DNA of 64,000 bases, from the NCBI RefSeq assembly GCF_030067705.1, contig NZ_JASJEX010000003.1, positions 1-64,000 on the forward strand, given 5' to 3'. The notes beneath the pieces are model-generated. The model was not told where the DNA came from, ran no database searches, and worked only from the letters and a program-made list of their open reading frames with translations. A program made the position numbers and the translations under genes. This document shows, piece after piece, positions 56,116 to 57,368 of this stretch. This DNA comes from Kribbibacterium absianum. Lineage in GTDB: Bacteria; Actinomycetota; Coriobacteriia; Coriobacteriales; Atopobiaceae. How positions within the stretch are numbered: the stretch's first letter is position 1; each line of letters begins with the position of its first letter.

Positions 56116-56192
<77 letters not shown>

Positions 56193-56202
56193 GGACTGTT
56201 CA

Positions 56203-56233
56203 GGGGCGCCGGCAACGGCGCCCCTTTCCTTTT
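56203..56233 (+). terminator. Terminator of tRNA-Pro
   Basis: GGGGCGCCG (56203-56211) and CGGCGCCCC (56216-56224) form a perfect stem with a GCAA loop followed by TTTCCTTTT. Confidence 0.92.
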
Positions 56234-56246
56234 CGCGGAGGTCGCC

Positions 56247-57368
56247 ATGTCCGTCACGTTCCGCACGTCGCCCGAGGCCATGGCCGCCCTCTCCGCATCC
56301 GACAAGCACCTGGCGCCGATCATCGAGCGCCTGGGCCCCCTCGAGCGCGAGATGGAGCCGGACCTCTTCCGCGGCATCGCGAGGAACATCACGGCCCAGC
56401 AGGTGTCCAATGCGGCGCTCGCCACTGTCTGGGGGCGCCTGCAGGAGGCCTGCGACGGTGCGGTCGCGCCTCGGACGGTGCTCGCGCTCGGCGAGGAGGG
56501 CCTTCGCGAAGTCGGCCTCTCGGGACGTAAGGCCTCGTACCTGCTCGGCGTCGCCGACGAGGTGGCGTCCGGACGGTTGGACCTCGATGCGCTCGCAGGG
56601 CTGTCGGACGAGGACGTGGTGGAGCGGCTCACCCAGCTCAAGGGCATCGGCCGCTGGACGGCGGAGATGCTCTTGCTCTTCTCGCTGGGGCGCCCGGACG
56701 TCCTCGCGTTCGACGACCTCGCCATCCAGCGCGGCATGCGCATGGTGCACCGGCACCGCACCATCACCCCGGAGCTCTTCCGCCGCTATGCCCGCAGGGA
56801 CAGCCCCTACGGGTCGACGGCGGCGCTCTATTACTGGGCCGTCGCCGGCGGGGCGCTCCCCGGGCTCACCGACCCCGGGGCGCCTCGAGCGCCCAAGCGG
56901 CGCGCCCCCGAGGCGTCGAGCGAGGCGGTGCGCCATTCGATGCAGGGCAACAAGGGCAAGGACACCAAGCCCGAGCTGCTCGTGCGGGAGCGGTTGCGCG
57001 CGTGCGGCCTCACGGGCTACCGGCTCCAATGGAAAAAGGCGCCGGGCCGCCCGGACATCGCATGGCCGGGCAAGAAGGTCGCGATCTTCGTCAACGGCTG
57101 CTTCTGGCACCGGTGCCCCCGCTGCAACCCGCGGATGCCCCGCACGCACACGGAGTACTGGGCCGAGAAGTTCGCCCGCAACCAAGAGCGCGACGCCCGC
57201 AACGTGGCGGCGCTCGAGGCGGAGGGCTGGACCGTGCACGTGGTCTGGGAGTGCGAGCTCAAGCGCGACCGGCGGGAGGAGACCTTCTCGACCCTGTTGC
57301 CGTCGTTGGCACAGGAGCTGGGGAGGGAGGAGCGCTTCCGAATCGGCGAGGACATCGAGCCGGAGTGA
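56247..57368 (+). CDS. AlkA-type DNA glycosylase fused to Vsr endonuclease
   Basis: A single 373-residue frame with two repair enzymes. Residues 1-205 are an HhH-GPD glycosylase: NITAQQVSNAALATVWGRL, hairpin LKGIGRWTAEML (131-142), and FDDLAIQRG with the catalytic Asp (about 157), as in AlkA/3-methyladenine glycosylase II. Residues 210-228 are a Pro/Arg/Ala-rich linker. Residues 229-355 match very-short-patch-repair endonuclease: KDTKPELLVRERL (metal Glu), APGRPDIAW (metal Asp), FVNGCFWHRCPRC (active-site and zinc region) and VHVVWECEL (zinc Cys). Vsr nicks at T:G mismatches; a lesion-coupled cut after base removal is conceivable but is inference. GGAGG precedes the ATG. It lies 54 bases after tRNA-Pro. 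No Dcm methylase is nearby. Confidence 0.88.
   Translation: MSVTFRTSPEAMAALSASDKHLAPIIERLGPLEREMEPDLFRGIARNITAQQVSNAALATVWGRLQEACDGAVAPRTVLALGEEGLREVGLSGRKASYLLGVADEVASGRLDLDALAGLSDEDVVERLTQLKGIGRWTAEMLLLFSLGRPDVLAFDDLAIQRGMRMVHRHRTITPELFRRYARRDSPYGSTAALYYWAVAGGALPGLTDPGAPRAPKRRAPEASSEAVRHSMQGNKGKDTKPELLVRERLRACGLTGYRLQWKKAPGRPDIAWPGKKVAIFVNGCFWHRCPRCNPRMPRTHTEYWAEKFARNQERDARNVAALEAEGWTVHVVWECELKRDRREETFSTLLPSLAQELGREERFRIGEDIEPE

Follow-up and report, generated by a model that had tools for sequence, protein, structure and literature searches.

An AlkA-like DNA glycosylase and a Vsr mismatch endonuclease joined in one gene of Kribbibacterium absianum, with a possible tie to cytosine methylation

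We analysed a window of 64,000 nt of Kribbibacterium absianum DNA (contig NZ_JASJEX010000003.1, positions 1 to 64,000 of the forward strand) and find that a single gene within it encodes both an AlkA-like DNA glycosylase and a Vsr endonuclease. That is, the 373-codon reading frame at 56247-57368 holds both domains complete and in one frame, as a sequence-only reading of this DNA had proposed. Each domain belongs to a known family; their joined architecture is a new variant, found in one genome. The same reading named no described system of this kind, which agrees with our search of the open-access literature: no description of a glycosylase-Vsr fusion was found, and neither was anything on point for AlkA in restriction-modification (R-M) operons. 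Given the evidence below, we consider it close to an even chance that the product is a single repair protein with two domains, whose halves would be independently active and delivered together against the collateral damage of 5-methylcytosine (5mC) methylation. The features of the gene and its upstream region are (window coordinates):

56116..56192, + strand: tRNA-Pro(CGG), directly upstream of the fusion gene
56202..56225, + strand: terminator-like hairpin with a 10 bp stem, between tRNA and fusion gene
56237..56241, + strand: Shine-Dalgarno motif GGAGG, 5 nt before the ATG, read from the sequence
56247..57368, + strand: AlkA-like glycosylase/Vsr fusion gene, 373 aa, ATG to TGA
56247..56849, + strand: N-terminal AlkA-type HhH-GPD glycosylase domain, residues 1-201 (Pfam, PDB match, model)
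56640..56669, + strand: HhH hairpin KGIGRWTAEM, residues 132-141, with invariant columns
56715..56717, + strand: glycosylase D157, the putative catalytic Asp, invariant across 41-42 homologues
56850..56918, + strand: Pro/Ala/Arg-rich linker, residues about 202-224, partly predicted to be disordered
56919..57293, + strand: C-terminal Vsr endonuclease domain, residues 225-349 (Pfam, NCBIfam, PDB, model)
56973..56975, + strand: Vsr acidic residue E243 (E. coli Glu25), invariant in the alignment
57054..57056, + strand: presumed metal-binding D270 of Vsr (E. coli Asp51), invariant in the alignment
57087..57116, + strand: FVNGCFWHRC, residues 281-290, with presumed zinc ligands Cys285/Cys290, wedge F286/W287 and catalytic H288
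57246..57260, + strand: WECEL, residues 334-338, holding the presumed fourth zinc ligand Cys336

AlkA-family enzymes excise alkylated bases, and the N-terminal half matches this family by sequence as well as by fold. Pfam's HhH-GPD model (PF00730) covers residues 48-182 (1.3e-13, 51.7 bits vs. a cut-off of 26.2), and the best phmmer match in the PDB for residues 7-201 is the AlkA-like structure 2h56 (1e-35). Both halves were modelled separately with AlphaFold, since a full-length MAFFT alignment of the fusion placed glycosylase rows on the Vsr half. The glycosylase model reaches a pLDDT of 96.5, and Foldseek again reports 2h56 as best PDB match (TM 0.83). The three top-ranking structures by sequence, 2h56, 2yg8 and 3s6i, also stand near the top by fold, i.e., they are closer than Nth, MutY or Ogg. 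Within the hairpin, G133, G135 and W137-M141 are invariant (41-42 homologues), while D157 is the residue that we take to be the equivalent of E. coli AlkA Asp238. The HhH-GPD core formerly placed at residues 131-157 is real, but this is the hairpin-plus-Asp part of a full domain that spans about residues 7-201. Fold, hairpin and catalytic Asp are shared with the Bacillus halodurans AlkA-like 3-methyladenine DNA glycosylase (2h56) and with Deinococcus radiodurans AlkA (2yg8; 1e-28 by sequence, TM 0.77). These two enzymes are stand-alone, whereas here the C-terminus continues into Vsr.

Vsr enzymes nick DNA at T:G mismatches that arise from 5-methylcytosine deamination. The Vsr half matches the Pfam Vsr model at residues 230-289 (1.9e-18, above the gathering score), NCBIfam TIGR00632 (vsr) at residues 225-337 (112.1 bits vs. 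a cut-off of 97.85) and E. coli Vsr (1cw0) by phmmer against the PDB for residues 232-349 (4e-21). Its AlphaFold core has pLDDT values of 93-97 with 1cw0 and 1vsr as best Foldseek matches; this confident predicted fold speaks against a lack of metal-binding geometry. Where the model begins, pLDDT falls below 50, in line with a partly disordered linker. The roles of individual residues are assumed from what we know of E. coli Vsr. On this basis, E243, D270 and H288 are the equivalents of Glu25, Asp51 and His69, and all three are present. The two acidic residues named in the earlier reading are invariant throughout our 47-row Vsr alignment, and its description of the domain as complete holds for residues 225-349, in which the catalytic and presumed zinc residues are intact. 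The predicted zinc site consists of four cysteines (285, 290, 293, 336) in place of C66/H71/C73/C117 of E. coli Vsr, and the aromatic wedge F286/W287/W305 is conserved. E. coli Vsr (1cw0, 1vsr) shares the fold, the E/D/H catalytic set, what is predicted here as a Cys-rich zinc site and the FW...W mismatch wedge. Differences are found at Val282 (Thr63 in E. coli) and at Asn283, which stands where E. coli has His64, a residue that is not defining for TIGR00632. Both letters are the consensus of the 47 rows, so Asn283 is no lesion of this copy and is treated as a putative subfamily difference. Unlike in E. coli, the Vsr domain lies C-terminal to a glycosylase and has no methylase adjoining it.

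We also evaluated whether the fusion is genuine. Codon-position G+C is coding-like over the whole gene, with third-position values of 0.84-1.00 at every step along its length. Around the junction, no stop is found for about 50 codons in any forward frame, i.e., frames +1 and +2 are open as well. A single missed indel can therefore not have hidden a nearby stop, which makes a simple frameshift artefact unlikely as judged from the sequence; the fusion may still stem from a base substitution at a stop codon or from a chimeric join. The source assembly comprises 7 contigs, is 99.78% complete and carries the fusion gene once, with the junction in the interior of a contig of 475 kb. Neither half has a second copy elsewhere in the genome; its other two HhH-GPD matches (C3:421928 and C2:41753) are not AlkA-like at the threshold used. 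That adjacent or distant genes were falsely joined by assembly or sequencing is thus very improbable in our view, even if the occurrence of the joined form in one genome only would fit such an error. The earlier reading had linked the two, in that a fusion found only here would point to an error; the first part agrees with all samples searched, while the sequence evidence speaks against the second.

Respective searches covered overlapping samples of the family (140 genomes), class (398) and phylum (396). In the family sample, 118/140 genomes match, but the halves are joined in the own genome alone, and no other joined form is found among the class and phylum genomes. Relatives carry glycosylase and Vsr as separate genes. 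A scan of 84,980 species gave at least 597 matches, and none of the 80 best is fused; it relied on exact 8-residue patterns such that distant fusions could escape it. Among plasmids and phages, no record has a single match over more than 80% of the query. For viral contigs, the only match spanning both halves (locus L158) does so as two genes, Vsr then glycosylase. Three apparent candidates were rejected: a Brachymonas locus (L099, match to residues 2-300) has no Vsr match, the extension of G593 (residues 10-296) crosses stops and leaves a glycosylase match only, and in L050 a stop separates two genes. In trees, both halves group with stand-alone Coriobacterial genes; no sister is resolved for either, and the terminal branch of the glycosylase half is long (0.68). 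With a single instance of the joined form, conservation gives no sign of selection for the fusion.

The gene begins 54 nt after tRNA-Pro(CGG). This tRNA lies beside ispE in 19/30 family loci (own included), while several others end at contig ends. The DNA that follows the tRNA varies among relatives, none of which has the fusion gene there, so the fusion occupies a variable tRNA-flanking site. The kept ispE-tRNA-Pro(CGG) part (56116-56225; loci L248-L276) with varying DNA behind it resembles a tRNA-flanking insertion hot spot. Within the portion of the window that was read, the fusion gene has no defence gene next to it. The remark that no cytosine methylase is adjacent holds for the same region; C5-methylases occur at three loci elsewhere in the genome.

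Next, we consider AlkA-like genes in R-M operons. AlkA-like, C5-methyltransferase (C5-MTase) and Vsr genes lie within a few kb at three unrelated loci, listed first; four further R-M loci hold an AlkA-like gene without Vsr:

L050, Nitrosospira Nl5: BanI-type restriction endonuclease (REase), C5-MTase, AlkA, Vsr
L043, Anaerosomatales MAG: AlkA, C5-MTase, Vsr, MutH/Sau3AI-like
L158, viral contig: C5-MTase, ORF of no known kind, Vsr, AlkA
L240, viral contig: AlkA-like, C5-MTase, Eco47II-type REase; without Vsr
L236, viral contig: AlkA-like, N4/N6-MTase, possible REase (no Pfam match); without Vsr
L229:5711-8474, Aeromonas caviae plasmid: AlkA-like right behind D12 MTase and SacI-family REase; without Vsr
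L230:2573-5336, Comamonas plasmid: AlkA-like right behind D12 MTase and SacI-family REase; without Vsr

The plasmid operons with adenine-type D12 methylases extend the R-M link beyond 5mC systems. R-M glycosylases included in the tree (L043, L158, L240) sit apart from one another, which suggests that AlkA-like glycosylases were recruited to R-M operons repeatedly. The query that retrieved L050 and L158 contained both halves, i.e., these two loci carry a selection effect, and no clear type II R-M neighbour is seen for the plasmid AlkA-like genes of Parabacteroides, Geminocystis, Nostoc, Sphaerospermopsis, Staphylococcus and Acidithiobacillus. We therefore regard the association as recurrent and not as a rule. 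SAM-methyltransferase genes lie near the AlkA-like gene on the Nostoc and Geminocystis plasmids, together with an HNH gene on the latter. In the close relatives examined, the AlkA-like gene is mostly without a methylase alongside. A Terrisporobacter phage gene was not counted, its two neighbouring DNA methyltransferase genes being 1.5 kb off on the opposite strand. Neither was G035 (L137:7711-10674), where the glycosylase is without an inner stretch, the C5-methylase is broken into frames and a NotI-like gene is the neighbour; the locus resembles a decaying R-M operon. The sequence-only reading had argued from the joining of the two activities in one chain; the co-location of their genes in R-M operons, which it overlooked, is the stronger functional clue.

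The C5-methylases of the genome lie at three loci (C3:273108, C2:149721, C2:598265), and one of them is solitary (G000:C2:598265-599497, contig 2). At eight loci, members of its family lie no more than about 6 kb from a Vsr gene. Two members have an AlkA-like gene nearby, namely those of L043 (53% identity to the solitary methylase) and of the relative G018 (68%). In the family sample, Vsr is present in 38/40 genomes with a methylase of this type compared to 77/100 without (p 0.013, kinship ignored). AlkA-like genes and the methylase co-occur weakly (8/15 vs. 32/125, p 0.03, kinship ignored), and no co-occurrence is observed for AlkA and Vsr within the family (13/15 vs. 102/125, p 1.0). Based on its linkage to Vsr and AlkA-like genes and its co-occurrence with Vsr, the C2:598265-599497 methylase is the best candidate partner, i.e., the likeliest client of the fusion as far as gene content can tell. 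Vsr is near-core in the family: 19/80 genomes that are at least 95% complete have Vsr and no detectable C5-methylase.

Since both gene kinds are neighbours in unrelated R-M operons, the fusion probably serves one job, and this is probably the clean-up after cytosine-methylating enzymes. In detail, the AlkA-type half would remove damaged bases and leave the abasic sites to the cell's own AP endonucleases, while the Vsr half would nick 5' of the T in T:G mismatches from 5-methylcytosine deamination. The flexible linker would let each half work independently, such that the fusion would mainly fix co-expression and bring both halves to the DNA that C5-methyltransferases modify. The common cause would be the side damage of C5-methylation, i.e., T:G mismatches plus N-methyl lesions such as 3-methylcytosine (3mC). 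Eukaryotic C5-methyltransferases (DNMTs) yield 3mC, and ALKB2 co-evolves with them for that reason (PMC9246332). The present genome shows no match to the AlkB family; AlkB is oxygen-dependent and the cultured members of Coriobacteriia are anaerobic, so a glycosylase is a plausible substitute. What we observe is the fusion with its intact residues and folds, AlkA-like genes that turn up repeatedly in R-M operons, and the linkage of the methylase family to Vsr; that the protein is active, what its substrates and partner are, and how the fusion is of benefit are inferred from these observations. Against this reading, some R-M systems combine an AlkA-like gene with an adenine or N4/N6 methylase, for which T:G is irrelevant. 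Further points are the singleton state, the mostly methylase-free AlkA-like genes of close relatives, the many plasmid ones without R-M, and the weak (AlkA-methylase) or missing (AlkA-Vsr) co-occurrence within the family.

Several of these observations would fit a recent chance fusion without a joint function, in which a housekeeping AlkA-type glycosylase and a Vsr were joined at a rearrangement-prone tRNA-flanking site and the fusion is tolerated while each half does its ordinary job. A singleton with both halves grouping among ordinary stand-alone Coriobacterial genes is what such an event would leave, as are the different genes behind ispE-tRNA-Pro in each relative and the AlkA/Vsr p of 1.0. 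Yet both halves are intact despite the long glycosylase branch (0.68), and AlkA-like and Vsr genes also adjoin each other in three R-M operons that are unrelated, so we rate this explanation as rather unlikely, albeit worth serious consideration. A coupled enzyme, as proposed in the sequence-only reading, would have the glycosylase make an abasic site at which the Vsr half nicks, replacing an AP endonuclease. A base remover and a nickase on one chain invite this idea, but nfo (257 bits, cut-off 130) and xth (298 bits, cut-off 99) are both present, so a bypass of AP endonucleases is not needed. Furthermore, the wedge F286, W287 and W305 points to mismatch recognition, the nearest solved Vsr relatives act at T:G, glycosylase and Vsr are separate genes in the R-M operons, and nothing in the sequence points to a sequential handover between the halves. 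The bypass is thus not borne out, and we regard the coupled enzyme as improbable. Less probable still, and in our view very improbable, is a defence role in which the fusion attacks foreign DNA, e.g., by excising modified phage bases and nicking there. PADLOC does list Vsr as a type II nicking endonuclease, and AlkA-like genes are found in R-M operons; on the other hand, the fusion gene has no defence neighbour in the part of the window read, and known Vsr proteins are repair enzymes whose residues are matched here.

A wider extension of the clean-up reading concerns R-M systems in general and anaerobes in particular. It is conceivable, if rather doubtful, that R-M systems repeatedly acquire a "methylation collateral damage" module of AlkA-like glycosylase and Vsr, present here on one chain. 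In it, the glycosylase would clear N-methyl lesions such as 3mC that the methylase leaves, Vsr would deal with the T:G mismatches from 5mC decay, and in anaerobes the glycosylase would replace oxygen-dependent AlkB. If the module exists, bacterial cytosine methylation would have a second cost beyond C-to-T mutation, namely lesions that need a dedicated glycosylase, and the bacterial case would mirror the DNMT/ALKB2 co-evolution. AlkA-like genes annotated merely as alkylation repair would gain a concrete role in R-M operons. The natural fusion is a handy one-protein test object for this methylation-damage question.

Among known systems, Mig.MthI is an enzyme that we take to be linked to a methylase, to be MutY-like and not AlkA-like, and not to be fused to a nuclease. 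This T/G-mismatch glycosylase represents an HhH enzyme for the same 5mC deamination problem (PMC2714593). The closest biological parallel to the setting of the fusion is Caulobacter crescentus, where the solitary VsrA and the unlinked solitary C5-methylase ScmA show the same unlinked arrangement (PMC12907096). The fusion differs in having a glycosylase, a word absent from the text of that paper. The two C5-methylases at L138:7531-8796 (C3) and L139:7668-9056 (C2) carry an N-terminal MerR-type HTH and are possibly self-regulating; one of them adjoins an Eco47II-type REase.
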